A model generated the notes under the pieces. The model saw nothing but the letters and a program-made list of their open reading frames with translations, searched no databases and was not told the DNA's origin. Positions 50,670-57,826 of a stretch of DNA of 58,624 bases are shown piece by piece. This DNA comes from Rhodopirellula sp. (lineage in GTDB: Bacteria; Planctomycetota; Planctomycetia; Pirellulales; Pirellulaceae). Every line of letters starts with the position of its first letter. Positions within the stretch are counted from its first letter, which is position 1. The stretch covers positions 1-58,624 of the forward strand of contig JAHELS010000012.1 in the NCBI GenBank assembly GCA_024644085.1. The letters are read 5' to 3'. The translations under genes and the position numbers were made by a program.

Positions 50670-51278
50670 TCACCAACCGAACCCGCCGGTCGTCATCCAG
50701 AACGCAACCAGCATGCAAAGCCAGACGCCGTCGAGGAAATGCCAGTAATGGGCTGCGAAATCGACCGGCCAATGGCGCTCGTGATCGTACCGCCCCAGGA
50801 GCGCACGGATCGAAACGATCCCCAATGCAATCACGCCGCCGGCGACGTGTAGCGCGTGCAATAGCGCAAGCACGGTAACCATTCCGGCCACACCGCGCCC
50901 GGTACCACCTCCCAGCGCGGGGCCGGAAAGCAGCTGGGTCATCGCGTGGAACTGGACTCCCATGAAAACGATCGCTGCGACCGCGCCCGCCACCAACAAC
51001 ACGCACGTGGCTCTGCGTTTCTCGCGACGTATCATGCGTGTTGCGAAGTGAACCAATCCGCTGATCAATAACAAACATACCGTACTGATCAAAAACGTTG
51101 TCGGCAGCGGCGCGGCTGTTTGAGGATCGTCTCGCCGCCAGTGAGCGTAGATCACATACAACAATATGCTGCTGATGAAGAACACGAACAACGAAACCAG
51201 AAACAATGTGCCTCCGAGACGGTATCGCGCATCGCTGGGAAGAATGGCTTTGGGCTGATTCGATTGCGAGGAATGCAT
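50670..51278 (-). CDS. Heme-copper oxidase subunit III
   Basis: 202 residues with about five membrane helices. The motif VDFAAHYWHFLDGVWLCMLV matches cytochrome oxidase subunit III (AAxYWHFVDxVW). Other oxidase subunits are not in the window. It is a proton-pump partner of respiratory heme-copper oxidases. Confidence 0.93.
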   Translation of the reverse strand: MHSSQSNQPKAILPSDARYRLGGTLFLVSLFVFFISSILLYVIYAHWRRDDPQTAAPLPTTFLISTVCLLLISGLVHFATRMIRREKRRATCVLLVAGAVAAIVFMGVQFHAMTQLLSGPALGGGTGRGVAGMVTVLALLHALHVAGGVIALGIVSIRALLGRYDHERHWPVDFAAHYWHFLDGVWLCMLVAFWMTTGGFGW

Positions 51279-52703: not shown

Positions 52704-54527
52704 ATGGAAGCGGAAGAATCAATCGTTGTTCGCCGGCCTGAGCGTTGGAGCGAGCCGATGGATGCGTCGATGAACGACGCTGACGTTTCGTGGCTGCGCT
52801 CCCGCGAGCCGTTTGCCAGCATGAGCCCCAAATCGTTCCCAAGAACGATCCCGCTCGACGGCATTCTTCGCAACGATTGTCGCATTCGGCGGTGTGAACC
52901 AGGCGAGATACTGGTTCGCGAAGGTGATTACGGAAATAGCGCGTTTCTGGTCCTCTCGGGCAGTGTGCGTGTGATGGTCAACGCTCTGGCGCCGGAACAG
53001 CTCGGCCGGTCCACAAAAAAGAAGCTCTCATGGTCCCAGGCACTGCGAAAGTACTTGCGTCGATCGAATTATCCCGAAACGCGGGAACCGCATGAGGTCA
53101 CCAGCAACATTGATTCGGGCAATGGCATCGGATCGTTACGCCAAGTTGACGACCGGCCCGCAGTCTTTCTCCAGGATTTCGACTTTGTTCTCCGTGACAA
53201 CGAAACCGTCTCTTTGGGACCCGGTGAACTGTTTGGCGAAGTCGCCGCAATGTACCGCTCGCCCCGTACCGCCACAGTCGTTTCGGAAACCGAAGCGACC
53301 CTGCTGGAGATTCGCTGGCAGGGGCTACGAATTCTTCGGCGCGATGCGGGGTTTGCCGACACACTCGAAGCCCATTACCGCAAACATTGGCTGGCGGTTC
53401 ACCTGAGGGAAGTCTCGCTGCTGCGACACCTCCCCGAAGCAAGTCTCAATCGTGTTGCCGATGCCACGCAGCTCCGTTCGTTCGGGCGGATGGAGTGGAA
53501 TACCGATTACCGCAAAACCCGAAAGCTTCCCGTCGAACAGCAAATTGAATCCGAGCCGTTGGTGGCCCAGGAAGGTCGTGTGCCGACGGACCTGATCATT
53601 GTCCGCAGCGGTTTCGGTCGGTTGTCACAACATTTTGGTGCATCGCACCGAACAACGGCCTATCTCGGAAAAGGGCATGTGTTCGGGCTGGAAGAATTGG
53701 CGCACAACTCGCTTCGCGCCGCCGAGACACCTCCGAGCACGCTTTCCAATTCGCTGCGTGCGGTCGGGTTCCTTGATGTGCTTTTCATCCCGGTGGAAGT
53801 ATTCGCCAGCGAAATATTGCCACACGTACGGCGTAGCGAACTTCCTGACTCTGCGGCCAGGCTGATGGTTCAATCATCCGAGTCGCGCAGAAAACAGGAT
53901 GAACGACGCCGCGCCGACCGGGAATCGAGCGGCACTCGAGGTGATGGCGAAGACGTGCCGAGTCCCACCGGCCAACAGTTTCAAGAAACCGGCCTGCTTG
54001 AATTCATCGTCGAAAACCGGATGAACAATGGCCGCCAGGCGATGGTCATCGACTTGCACCGTTGCACGCGTTGCGATGACTGTGTCAAAGCGTGCGCCGC
54101 GACTCACGATGGTAACCCTCGATTCGTCCGCGAAGGCATTTCCCACGAGCAATTGCAGTTTGTCCAGGCATGCATGCAGTGCACCGATCCGGTTTGCATG
54201 ATCGGATGCCCCACCGGTGCCATCGCCAGGGACGAAGAGACCGGCGTCGTCGAAATCTACGAACCGATCTGTGTGGGCTGCGGGACATGTGCCGCAGCAT
54301 GTCCCTACGAGAACATCCGCATGGCGGAAGTTTTCGATTCACAGGGAAGACCCTACCACGACATCGAACGCGGAAAACCGATCATGAAAGCGACCAAGTG
54401 CGACATGTGCAGTCGACAACCCAGTGGGCCCGCATGTGCTTCGGCCTGTCCGCACGACGCGCTGGTGCGTATCGACCTCAGTGAATCCAAACCGTTGCAG
54501 CAATGGCTCGAGCGACGGAGCGAATAA
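52704..54527 (+). CDS. Two cyclic-nucleotide-binding-like domains fused to a four-cluster ferredoxin
   Basis: From ATG 52704 (a start at 52617 also fits) the product is about 607 residues. The first half contains a first cNMP-binding-like domain (LVREGDYGNSAFLVLSGSVR, then LGPGELFGEVAAMYRSPRTA) with a Ser/Arg-rich insert, and a second, more diverged one (VAQEGRVPTDLIIVRSGFGR; YLGKGHVFGLEELAHN). A charged linker follows. The last 150 residues form a DmsB/HybA-type ferredoxin with 16 Cys in four groups (CTRCDDCVKAC, CMQCTDPVCMIGC, CVGCGTCAAAC, CDMCSRQPSGPACASAC), enough for four [4Fe-4S] clusters. No signal peptide is visible. A membrane protein follows after three bases. Confidence 0.9.
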   Translation: MEAEESIVVRRPERWSEPMDASMNDADVSWLRSREPFASMSPKSFPRTIPLDGILRNDCRIRRCEPGEILVREGDYGNSAFLVLSGSVRVMVNALAPEQLGRSTKKKLSWSQALRKYLRRSNYPETREPHEVTSNIDSGNGIGSLRQVDDRPAVFLQDFDFVLRDNETVSLGPGELFGEVAAMYRSPRTATVVSETEATLLEIRWQGLRILRRDAGFADTLEAHYRKHWLAVHLREVSLLRHLPEASLNRVADATQLRSFGRMEWNTDYRKTRKLPVEQQIESEPLVAQEGRVPTDLIIVRSGFGRLSQHFGASHRTTAYLGKGHVFGLEELAHNSLRAAETPPSTLSNSLRAVGFLDVLFIPVEVFASEILPHVRRSELPDSAARLMVQSSESRRKQDERRRADRESSGTRGDGEDVPSPTGQQFQETGLLEFIVENRMNNGRQAMVIDLHRCTRCDDCVKACAATHDGNPRFVREGISHEQLQFVQACMQCTDPVCMIGCPTGAIARDEETGVVEIYEPICVGCGTCAAACPYENIRMAEVFDSQGRPYHDIERGKPIMKATKCDMCSRQPSGPACASACPHDALVRIDLSESKPLQQWLERRSE

Positions 54528-54530
54528 CCG

Positions 54531-55352
54531 ATGCAAAAAATCTCCTTTCGTCGCCGCCGGCAAGCCTCGATCCTCGTGACGCTCCTGGCGGCTGCTGTGG
54601 TCGGCGCAATCGCCTGGGTTCAGTCGGGTCGACTGGCTCACGCATCGTTTTTCACGGGAGCGACGCTGCTGTCATCGGTGCTGTTGCTGGGGTTGCTCGG
54701 GGTTCGCCGACGTTTACCGATACTGCCGTTGGGCAGCGTCAGCACATGGACTCAGATTCACATCTATCTCGGACTGTTCACTTCTGCTGTCTATGTGATG
54801 CACGTGCCTGCGATCATTGCTGGGGGCGTCTTCGAGTGCGGCCTGTCGATCGTCTTTCTGCTGGTAACGGCAAGCGGGTTCTATGGCATTTACGCCAGCC
54901 GCACGCTCCCCAAACGTTTGACCGCCGTCGAAGGCCAGCACCGTTTCGACCGCGTCTCGTGGCATCGCATTCAAATCGCCGACACAGCACGCGAGCTGCT
55001 CGCGGAACTCAATGAACAGTCCGGTGTGCGGGTACTGGGAACCTTCTACACCAATTACTTGCATCCCTTTTTCGGCTCGCGTCCCTCGTTCGCCTATGTG
55101 CTGATGCCCACCGGTGTGCGGCGCCGGCGTCTGCTCAGTGGATTGCAGGAGCTTAACCGCTACCTCGAATCCGACGGACGAACCACGGCTGGACGATTCG
55201 CGGCGCTGGTGCGCCGTCGCGACGACCTCGACTATCAATTCGCGCTGCAACTGCGGCTGCGGTTGTGGCTTGTTATCCACTGCCTCTTTTCCGTCGCCCT
55301 GATCGTGGGCGGAATCATCCACGCCGTGATTGCGTGGAGATTCTCCGGCTAG
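54531..55352 (+). CDS. Membrane protein with two spaced His pairs (di-heme b-type candidate)
   Basis: The 273 residues begin four bases after the upstream gene. Five hydrophobic helices are seen (about 12-30, 40-58, 74-98, 105-123 and 246-270), with a soluble insert of about 120 residues between helix 4 and 5. Helix 3 has His77 and His91 and helix 5 has His250 and His264, each pair 14 apart. This is the bis-heme b arrangement of ferric-reductase and bc-type membrane cytochromes. It could carry electrons between the cytoplasmic ferredoxin and the outside cytochrome coded next. No named family recognised. Confidence 0.85.
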   Translation: MQKISFRRRRQASILVTLLAAAVVGAIAWVQSGRLAHASFFTGATLLSSVLLLGLLGVRRRLPILPLGSVSTWTQIHIYLGLFTSAVYVMHVPAIIAGGVFECGLSIVFLLVTASGFYGIYASRTLPKRLTAVEGQHRFDRVSWHRIQIADTARELLAELNEQSGVRVLGTFYTNYLHPFFGSRPSFAYVLMPTGVRRRRLLSGLQELNRYLESDGRTTAGRFAALVRRRDDLDYQFALQLRLRLWLVIHCLFSVALIVGGIIHAVIAWRFSG

Positions 55353-55378
55353 CCGGTCCAACGCGAAGACCCGAAAAC

Positions 55379-57409
55379 ATGCGACGAGACGAGCTAACTC
55401 TTCCCGAACCACCTGCGACCGATCGGCCCGGCGACCGGTGGATGTGTGGACGTACCGGGGACCAGGCAGCTTGCCCGAGAGGCCCGGATCCCCAGGGAAC
55501 GTGTCCACTTGCCGAAGCCTGTCACCCTCGACGCACCTGGCACGGGAAACGCAAGCGAATAGCGACGGTCATCGGCGTCCTGATCACGGTGATTGTCTTT
55601 GCCCTGGCCTGGACTCAGTCGAGCGCGTCGGTCATGAAACCGGGTGAACTATCGACACCGCACGCCCAGATCCTCGCCAGCACATTGACATCGCAGCGAT
55701 GCGCATCGTGCCATCCCGAGGCGGCCACGTCGACCGCCGAGTGGTTCTCGAAGGACACCGCCGGCCATCAAAACGTGACCCAATCGGATCGTTGCCTCGA
55801 TTGTCATCACACGACAATCCAGCGTTCGACGGCGACGCTCGCCCATAATCTGCCGAAGCGAATGCGCGCAAGGCTGAGACCGGTATCGATCACAGAAGAA
55901 ACCCAAACGTGGCAAGACCTGCTTCCCGGACCGGCGATCGACCAGGAAAACATCCAATGCAGCGCCTGTCATCGTGAGCATCGCGGTGCTGATGGAAATC
56001 TCCTGGACATCTCCGACTCGCAATGCCAAACATGCCACAGTGATCGTTTCGGCAGCTTCGCAACCTCGCACGTTGATTGGGACGACTGGCCCTACGGACG
56101 CGGTCGCAGCATCGCTTTCAACCATTTCACTCACGCGACGAAACATTTTCCAGCAACCGCGCGGGGGACGTCGGTCGCCCAGTTCCAGTGCACCGATTGT
56201 CACCCGCGCAGCGCCAGCGGGGAACTCGAACGTTCGGCCAACTACGAGCGATCATGCGCCCAGTGCCACGATGAAGCGTTGCGAATTGAAGCGGCGGAAG
56301 GATTCGAGTTGCTTGCCTTGCCGACGTTGCCTGAGGAATCCGCCGAAAGAGTTCATCCGTGGCCGGAATCGGCGACCGGCTTTTTTGATGGAGTATTGTC
56401 CCCACTTGCCGATCTGATGATTCGCGCCGACGCCAACACTGACGCCGCGATCCGTCAGCTACCACAGCGGGACTTTGGCCGAATCGATCCCCACAATCGT
56501 GACTCGGTCGCCGCCTGTGAAACGATCGCCCGCGCGTACCGACAACTTCTACTTGAGTTCGGAAGCGACGGACAACGGGTTTTCGTTGAACGAATGAACG
56601 CGATTGGCATCTCTTCGGACACTCTCAAGCCGCTGCTGCGATCGCTCTCACCGCAGCTGGTCAGGGAAACCCACTCGCGTTGGTTCACCGCCGAGATCGG
56701 CCGTGGAGTGCGCCAAATACAGTTCCAGGATTCCTCCGCGCCACCCGCGTCGCTGTTGATCGATGAGCGCGAACTGGATTTCGCCGATTCATTGATCCCC
56801 GCCGACGGGATCGCCGAAAGCGACCTCCTTGCCTTGCCGGATGCCGATTCACATACAGGCGATCCGCTGGCGGAAGATCTGCCGAATCCGAAGTCTCGAG
56901 AGGCCGCCGCCACTTTCGACGCCGAGCGGATGGTGCCTCTTGGTGGTTGGTTCCGAGATGATTCGCGCATGGCGATTCGGTACCGGGGGGGCGGGCACGA
57001 CGATCCTGTGCTCAAGTCCGCAATCGATTTGATTAACCAGCTTCCCATTGGGGATCCCGCCCGCGCCAGCATGTTGAGCAATCGTGCGATTGCGGCCTGC
57101 ATCGCGTGTCATCCGGGCGCTCTGCGCCGCGGTATCCCGCAATGGCGCAGCGAAGCGTTGATCGGACGCAAACATGACTTCACAAAATTCTCGCATGCGC
57201 CGCATTTGAATATCGCCACACTTGCCGATTGCCGACACTGTCATCGGATCGGTGGACCGCCCAGTGGAACCACGGCCCTGGTCGGCGCGCGAACGGAGAT
57301 TCGGGAGTTCGCCCCCCTGAGCCGCCAATCGTGCGCAGCGTGCCACACGCCTCAAGCCGCAGGCGATGCCTGCGTAAAATGTCATCGCTACCACATCGAT
57401 CTACGATGA
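55379..57409 (+). CDS. Membrane-anchored decaheme c-type cytochrome
   Basis: From ATG 55379 the protein has 676 residues. A Cys-containing cytoplasmic N-terminus (CGRTGDQAACPRG, then CPLAEAC) precedes a membrane helix (ATVIGVLITVIVFALAWT). Ten CxxCH heme motifs follow: CASCH, CLDCH, CSACH, CQTCH, CTDCH, CAQCH, then after a gap CIACH, CRHCH, CAACH and CVKCH. A region of about 270 residues with no heme motif lies between the sixth and seventh. It belongs to the electron-transfer group 52704-57409. The last nine bases overlap the converging YjbQ gene. Confidence 0.93.
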   Translation: MRRDELTLPEPPATDRPGDRWMCGRTGDQAACPRGPDPQGTCPLAEACHPRRTWHGKRKRIATVIGVLITVIVFALAWTQSSASVMKPGELSTPHAQILASTLTSQRCASCHPEAATSTAEWFSKDTAGHQNVTQSDRCLDCHHTTIQRSTATLAHNLPKRMRARLRPVSITEETQTWQDLLPGPAIDQENIQCSACHREHRGADGNLLDISDSQCQTCHSDRFGSFATSHVDWDDWPYGRGRSIAFNHFTHATKHFPATARGTSVAQFQCTDCHPRSASGELERSANYERSCAQCHDEALRIEAAEGFELLALPTLPEESAERVHPWPESATGFFDGVLSPLADLMIRADANTDAAIRQLPQRDFGRIDPHNRDSVAACETIARAYRQLLLEFGSDGQRVFVERMNAIGISSDTLKPLLRSLSPQLVRETHSRWFTAEIGRGVRQIQFQDSSAPPASLLIDERELDFADSLIPADGIAESDLLALPDADSHTGDPLAEDLPNPKSREAAATFDAERMVPLGGWFRDDSRMAIRYRGGGHDDPVLKSAIDLINQLPIGDPARASMLSNRAIAACIACHPGALRRGIPQWRSEALIGRKHDFTKFSHAPHLNIATLADCRHCHRIGGPPSGTTALVGARTEIREFAPLSRQSCAACHTPQAAGDACVKCHRYHIDLR

Positions 57410-57826
57410 TGATTCGCCGTGGACTGTGACGACTACGCTGCGACCGCTGGCCCGATCCCGATGTTCGCACAGATAGATTCCCTGCCATGTACCCAGTTGC
57501 AGCCGGCCGTCGCTGACCGGGATCATGACGCTGCTTCCCATCATGCTCGCCTTGACATGGGCCGGCATGTCATCGGGGCCCTCGAGTGTGTGAACATAGG
57601 GCAATGACTCGGGGACGGCATGATTCATCGCCGTCTCAAAGTCGACTCGGACGTCCGGGTCTGCGTTCTCGTTGATCGTCAATGAGGCGCTGGTGTGCTG
57701 GATGAAAACCTGCATCCACCCGATTCGAACCGAGGACAACTCCGGCACCGCGTGGGTGACCTCATTCGTGATCAGATGGAACCCGCGGCGGGCGGCGGGG
57801 AGTCGAATTGTCTGCTGGAGCCACAT
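57401..57826 (-). CDS. YjbQ-family (UPF0047) protein
   Basis: The 141 residues match the YjbQ family: VFIQHTSASLTINENADPDV, the signature with His and Asn residues, SMMGSSVMIPVSDGRLQLGT and WQGIYLCEHRD. E. coli YjbQ has been reported to have thiamin-phosphate synthase activity, but its physiological role is not established. The protein is cytoplasmic. Confidence 0.95.
   Translation of the reverse strand: MWLQQTIRLPAARRGFHLITNEVTHAVPELSSVRIGWMQVFIQHTSASLTINENADPDVRVDFETAMNHAVPESLPYVHTLEGPDDMPAHVKASMMGSSVMIPVSDGRLQLGTWQGIYLCEHRDRASGRSVVVTVHGESSS

Follow-up and report, generated by a model that had tools for sequence, protein, structure and literature searches.

A cyclic nucleotide-binding ferredoxin, a putative di-heme membrane protein and a decaheme cytochrome form a conserved gene trio and a candidate transmembrane electron conduit in Rhodopirellula

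The transmembrane complexes Hmc, Tmc and DsrMKJOP of sulfate reducers combine a ferredoxin-type subunit, a b-type membrane protein and a multiheme c subunit. In the inner-membrane b/c cytochromes of Geobacter (CbcL and the Cbc clusters), which are quinol-linked, a b-type membrane part passes electrons to a periplasmic multiheme c. NADPH oxidases and ferric reductases carry two pairs of His about 14 residues apart in two helices, over which electrons cross the membrane from the flavin side. MtrA-type decahemes hold ten c hemes, and the NADH module of complex I (NuoE, NuoF and the N-terminal part of NuoG) also occurs in soluble hydrogenases. One report names CbcL as an inner-membrane cytochrome (PMC5585712), another describes a Rieske/cytochrome b cluster with 2-, 10-, 12- and 5-heme cytochromes (PMC2825233), and a third porin-multiheme clusters with 8-heme proteins in Verrucomicrobia (PMC5615132). 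Here we analyze three consecutive genes, called A, B and C, in a 58,624-nucleotide stretch of Rhodopirellula sp. DNA (assembly GCA_024644085.1, contig JAHELS010000012.1, positions 1 to 58,624; "the window" below). A search of the literature by title and start of abstract, with most subscription papers outside its coverage, found no description of such an A-B-C cluster.

The genes, called by script as the longest open reading frames, are:

52704..54527, + strand: gene A, 607 amino acids, tandem cyclic nucleotide-binding (CNB) domains and a 16-Cys ferredoxin
54531..55352, + strand: gene B, 273 amino acids, membrane protein, two heme b predicted
55379..57409, + strand: gene C, 676 amino acids, N-terminally anchored decaheme cytochrome c

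An earlier note, made from the letters of this DNA, had given four bases between A and B, which on recount are 3. Its 26-base gap between B and C and its three consecutive plus-strand genes agree with our re-reading of 52704-57409, and its list of parts was borne out: two CNB domains and 16 Cys in A, H77/H91 and H250/H264 in B, and an anchor with ten CxxCH motifs in C. We consider it probable that A-B-C is a transmembrane conduit, in which electrons from NAD(P)H or ferredoxin would pass to A, B and C and then to a tetraheme cytochrome of the c554 family.

A search of genome contigs returned at least 546 confirmed relatives of A, of which the best 80 are the named loci (L numbers) used here; loci cut by a contig edge were removed from the uncut-locus counts. 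Gene B follows A in 76 of 78 uncut loci (74 by script, with 2 cut and 4 missed; among the latter L115 and L128 show B, and L116 and L145 are left). Gene C follows B in 73 of 76 (72 by script, 4 cut, 4 missed; L099 shows C), the exceptions being L082 and L086, which have lost C, and L116, which is not clearly scored. Fewer than ten CxxCH motifs are seen in 10 of 72 C genes; most of these stop at a contig edge and one (L094) is a decayed copy. The A-B-C order is seen in records of Planctomycetota, Verrucomicrobiota and Alphaproteobacteria, many being metagenome-assembled genomes. Matches to B (E ≤ 1e-3) occur in 43/99 genomes of the relatives set, our own included (33 at 100 bits or more), and in 103/392 genomes of the phylum set (34 at 100 bits or more). 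The main check proposed in the earlier note was whether other genomes carry these genes together in this order, and the answer is strongly positive. Because divergent genomes keep key residues and gene order, the A-B-C pattern is beyond chance. The idea that three unrelated genes lie side by side by accident, to which we give next to no credence, is ruled out by an order conserved in records of all three groups.

In the proposed conduit, the cytoplasmic entry point for electrons would be the four 4Fe-4S clusters predicted in A, a protein taken as cytoplasmic, its N-terminus being by eye without a hydrophobic stretch.

54063..54449, + strand: ferredoxin part of A, Cys454-Cys582, four 4Fe-4S clusters predicted

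Several Fer4 families match A over cut-off. The 16 ferredoxin Cys are invariant in 21/21 aligned proteins and in 79/79 rows from the best-80 loci; these residue counts drop rows shorter than 500 (A), 230 (B) and 600 (C) residues, leaving 79, 77 and 66. Among the best 25 of 85 NCBIfam matches to this part, no ferredoxin-subunit equivalog exceeds its cut-off; HydN (63 bits, cut-off 260), DsrO, NrfC and HmcB match below it. Unlike the Hmc, Tmc and DsrMKJOP systems, A carries CNB domains, and B and C are without a matching NCBIfam equivalog over cut-off.

Membrane crossing would run over two b hemes of B, with the predicted ligand pairs H77/H250 toward the inner side and H91/H264 toward the outer side. 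All four His are invariant in 21/21 aligned proteins; among 77 rows, H77 and H91 are kept in 77/77 and H250 and H264 in 75/75, the remaining two rows being gaps. The predicted model (predicted local distance difference test score, pLDDT, 90.7) has long helices at 6-33, 38-61, 70-91, 100-132 and 214-270 with shorter ones between, placing H77 and H91 in helix 70-91 and H250 and H264 in the last helix, 14 residues apart within each. The window protein has a single Pfam match, DUF4405, at 18.8 bits (cut-off 26.7), and across 21 B proteins at E ≤ 0.1 DUF4405 matches 8, Ni_hydr_CYTB 4 and Ferric_reduct 2. These weak matches point to a place for B among two-heme b proteins, without proving it, and together with the four invariant His in two helices they strengthen the di-heme assignment made earlier. 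Placing B in a curated Pfam or NCBIfam family failed, the window protein having no match over cut-off. In contrast to ferric reductases, PF01794 matches 2/21 B proteins at E ≤ 0.1 and not window B; the flavin part is a separate gene absent from the window, and the acceptor is a decaheme.

Electrons would leave over ten bis-His hemes of C to the c554-family protein, whose gene in this species lies apart from the trio. The ten CxxCH motifs of C are invariant in a 17-protein alignment, and C matches the Pfam c7 family PF14522 at 53.4 bits (cut-off 24.8). Ten further, distal His are all kept in 63/66 rows, the misses being gaps except for one at H606. Because the conserved extra His equal the hemes in number, C looks like a wire of bis-His hemes, with no open catalytic heme, rather than an active site; a catalytic cytochrome is disfavored on the same count. 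A single membrane anchor lies, by eye, near residues 61-78, and the C proteins of relatives likewise show one hydropathy segment. The C profile matches chain A of PDB 6r2q (E 8e-8), an entry that we take to be the MtrCAB complex; the match table names chain A otherwise. C differs from MtrA-type decahemes in its N-terminal anchor and in a long stretch without hemes that separates heme 6 from heme 7, and the trio is without a porin gene.

55445..55522, + strand: four-Cys motif of C (C23, C32, C42, C48) ahead of the membrane anchor, presumably facing the cytoplasm

In this motif C23 and C48 are present in 17/17 proteins and C32 and C42 in 90% or more. A related pattern appears in 49/71 relatives, so it is optional and was rejected as an essential cluster site. 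Four loci (L112, L119, L125, L153) have long Cys-rich stretches (9-13 Cys) ahead of the C anchor, with repeated C..GP...G.C units that may bind metal.

The earlier note saw no catalytic subunit, which is true of the window, where Pfam finds no NuoE or NuoF domain in A, B or C; relatives have a flavin adenine dinucleotide (FAD)/NAD/2Fe-2S reductase nearby, or NuoE-F with NuoG-like parts. Judged by their domains, these NAD(P)H-using enzymes are the putative cytoplasmic catalytic part that the window lacks. In many relatives outside the window's clade the donor would be NAD(P)H, acting through the nearby FAD/2Fe-2S reductase. FAD_binding_6, NAD_binding_1 and Fer2 are over cut-off in the upstream gene of L052, L054, L056 and L060, the four Pfam-checked cases; other reductase genes were labelled by BLAST to three examples. 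Across the 80 loci, a reductase directly adjoins the cluster in 31, is cut in 8 and is absent in 41, under a rule that skips divergent or spaced genes (e.g. L111, L141, L145, L151, L154). Counted anywhere in the fetched stretch, a reductase is found in 36 loci; none of these belongs to the 24 Rhodopirellula-like loci, and all lie among the other 56.

A c554 gene lies directly upstream of the cluster in 38 of the 80 loci, is cut in 5 and absent in 37; the 24 Rhodopirellula-like loci have neither c554 nor reductase adjoining A (L099 is cut). An alignment of 41 c554 rows shows 5 extra His at 95% or more, against 4 hemes. Our own genome encodes an intact, unlinked tetraheme c554-family protein (L164:4198-5241, G000:C175) that is 46% identical to the linked c554 of L054. 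In a tree of A (83 rows, a quick method with Shimodaira-Hasegawa-like approximate likelihood ratio support only, rooted on the sister protein A'), the window falls in a group that is nearly all trio-only and is nested inside c554-adjacent lineages, and the label needs 2 changes; for these reasons the linked form looks ancestral to the trio-only form. Eight loci (L121, L129, L130, L141, L143, L144, L146, L153) have a five-CxxCH gene of 663-943 amino acids near the cluster, in 7/8 of them beside a gene of 459-672 amino acids with one hydrophobic segment.

The sister cluster links its trio to NADH-oxidizing parts. In L073, L076, L077, L207 and L208 its order is B', decaheme, c554-like, NuoE-F fusion and A', and in L072 the c554-like gene follows A'. 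The NuoE-F fusion is Pfam-confirmed in L072 and L073 and labelled by BLAST in four more sister clusters. A' of L072 has a NuoG-like Fer2_4, a CNB and a ferredoxin domain over cut-off; Fer2_4 narrowly misses its cut-off in L073 and is also below it in L077. By hhalign, B' is a homolog of B (probability 99.6, E 5e-25), and so is C' of C (99.9, E 1e-31, covering C up to the sixth heme). The first His pair of B' is kept in 9/9 rows and the second in 8/9, the ninth row (L069) leaving the contig, and by eye both CNB cassettes of A' have Glu and Arg in 5/5 rows. The donor here would be NADH, through NuoE-F and the NuoG-like domain fused to A. Unlike complex I, this cluster joins NuoEF to a CNB-ferredoxin, a di-heme b protein and a decaheme; the window has no such module, which is found in the sister cluster and, in our own genome, on contig C18. 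Pieces of the sister cluster lie at contig ends in our own genome: a four-heme frame and a NuoE-F fusion (79% identity) on C18 (L210:2-3985), and a CNB-ferredoxin A' piece on C117 (L198:10837-12387). Its decaheme was not found there, in a search without a positive control.

The sequences themselves show the gene linkage, the conservation of the putative ligands, the NADH/flavin domains of relatives and, within one genus, the shared decay of C and c554. For the conduit we infer a complex of the three proteins, the heme pairing given above, gating, a last acceptor, which may lie in the periplasm or outside the cell, and an outward direction. The direction is argued from the NADH modules in relatives and, from general knowledge, the membrane potential. 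Inward flow, in which C would take up periplasmic or extracellular electrons and pass them by way of B and A to ferredoxin or NAD+ in the cytoplasm, appears rather unlikely to us. Sequences do not fix direction, and diaphorase-type modules such as NuoEF are generally known to be reversible. Set against this, such flow would run uphill against the membrane potential onto low-potential carriers and need an energy source, again as general knowledge; none was recognized beside the trio, where the neighbors of relatives were only roughly labelled. This and the other readings overlap, and the weights we give them need not sum to one.

The CNB part of A would add a switch to the outward conduit.

52887..53330, + strand: CNB1 of A, interrupted by an insert; cassette residues FGE (177-179)...PRTAT (187-191)
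53553..53807, + strand: CNB2 of A, weak match (22 bits), degenerate, no Glu/Arg cassette seen by eye

Pfam cNMP_binding (PF00027) matches A in three stretches (E 1.1e-20). Model positions 2-31 of CNB1 fall on 52887-52976 and positions 42-83 on 53205-53330, with about 76 residues between. CNB1 holds a phosphate-binding cassette with Glu and Arg (FGE...PRTAT). As Glu179 is kept in 79/79 rows, Arg188 in 69/79 and Thr189 in 44/79, most relatives of A probably bind nucleotide, with about ten in doubt. In Foldseek searches, the predicted model (pLDDT 73) matches the regulatory tandems of the protein kinases PKA and PKG (best E 5.1e-17). Three PF00211 cyclase loci over cut-off in our own genome could be the ligand makers; the genome also encodes three more CNB proteins (G000:C356, C277, C409; L002-L004), whose open frames span 534, 526 and 501 amino acids.

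A cyclic nucleotide on CNB1 may switch or tune electron flow; such gating is plausible, though on balance less likely than not. As a possibility that we do not favor at present, the trio may belong to a family of electron channels gated by second messengers, with members in Planctomycetota, Verrucomicrobiota and some Alphaproteobacteria, in which cyclic AMP or cyclic GMP on a PKA-regulatory-like tandem would directly control whether NAD(P)H-driven electrons can cross the cytoplasmic membrane and reach a multiheme wire. The likeness of the tandem to kinase regulatory subunits would also suit a redox sensor, in which few electrons pass and A signals the periplasmic redox state by an altered affinity for a nucleotide or partner; ten conserved hemes in C and linked NADH-oxidizing domains exceed what a sensor needs, and we regard this as improbable. 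If gating holds, a cyclic nucleotide would itself switch an electron route in bacteria, rather than acting through transcription. A-B-C would also give a large and mostly uncultured group an identified outlet for electrons and would offer a clear gene set to purify; even without gating the relatives with NADH modules make the orphan trio a testable pathway.

We scored 22 same-genus genomes, our own (G000) included, for C and the unlinked c554. Nine keep C (G000, 001, 003, 005, 012, 013, 017, 018, 021), and 8/9 of these have an intact c554. G013 is scored as keeping C, though doubtfully: C is cut by a contig edge, a stop-holding piece is on another contig, and A has one stop. Seven genomes have B with C decayed or absent (G002, 006, 008, 009, 011, 016, 020); none (0/7) has an intact c554, and five have remnants of it. 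Six have no trio or a scrap only (G004, 007, 010, 014, 015, 019), again with no intact c554 (0/6). Some genomes in the set are incomplete (G010 66%, G014 74%, G008 77%, G002 86%, G019 87%, G004 89%). That two genes at different places decay together speaks for C and c554 belonging to one pathway. On a tree of B (23 genomes with B), the states of C need 3 changes and those of c554 need 4.

Several observations weigh against the conduit reading. B has no solved relative by fold (Foldseek against pdb, E ≤ 0.001), Dcytb and b561 appearing just at E about 2-3, and Arg188 of A is absent in 10/79 relatives. No reductase is found in the fetched stretch of 20/56 loci outside the window's group, some on short contigs, and a search of our own genome for the FAD reductase gave one weak match (25% identity, 54 bits) with a stop inside. 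G021 has the trio, and an intact c554 was not found in it. The tree-corrected comparison of C and c554 has 2 supported independent pairs, both in the same direction; it is not significant and, with just two such pairs, cannot become so. A and B are open with checked key residues kept, and C is gone or broken, in G006, G009, G011 and G016; G002 and G008, without intact C, have an open B and an A that runs into a contig edge. In G020, A and B are both broken. Pairwise ratios of nonsynonymous to synonymous change (pN/pS) for A and B among the C-less G006, G009 and G011 are 0.19-0.23, compared with 0.07-0.08 for the C-keeping pair G005/G017 and 0.09-0.12 for G013/G016; these come from pairwise counts, and synonymous sites of the G005/G017 control are near saturation (synonymous divergence 1.8-1.9). 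A-B seems to be under selection without C, though less strictly, and, persisting at such ratios in C-less relatives, does not strictly need it; either it has another outlet or its decay lags. The earlier view that the three genes act together keeps its strong support from gene order and is weakened by these six genomes with open A and B and with C lost or broken (A running off the contig in two).

Since purifying selection maintains A-B in some relatives without C, A-B may have another partner, and this favors a quinone-linked B. A-B-C would then act as a quinol:cytochrome c oxidoreductase, resembling the inner-membrane b/c cytochromes of Geobacter, with A reporting or setting the redox state instead of supplying electrons; di-heme b proteins are also generally known to bind quinone often. 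Unlike in the Geobacter cytochromes, however, the parts that go together in relatives of A-B-C are NAD(P)H modules and a CNB-ferredoxin, with NADH/flavin domains on the cytoplasmic side. Six window proteins run through Pfam include no NrfD-type match; no genome-wide NrfD search was made, and the neighbors of relatives were labelled by hemes, hydropathy and a few references. We judge a quinone link unlikely, though it deserves more weight than inward flow, and retain the NAD(P)H- or ferredoxin-fed conduit as the probable reading.

Around the trio, a UPF0047 gene on the opposite strand (57401-57826, - strand) shares 9 bases with the end of C, and a COX3-like gene (E 1.9e-7; 50670-51278, - strand) lies past a phosphofructokinase gene in the window. 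In several relatives (L079-L082, L086, L094), a gene of 205-206 amino acids with 4-5 helices is located upstream of A.

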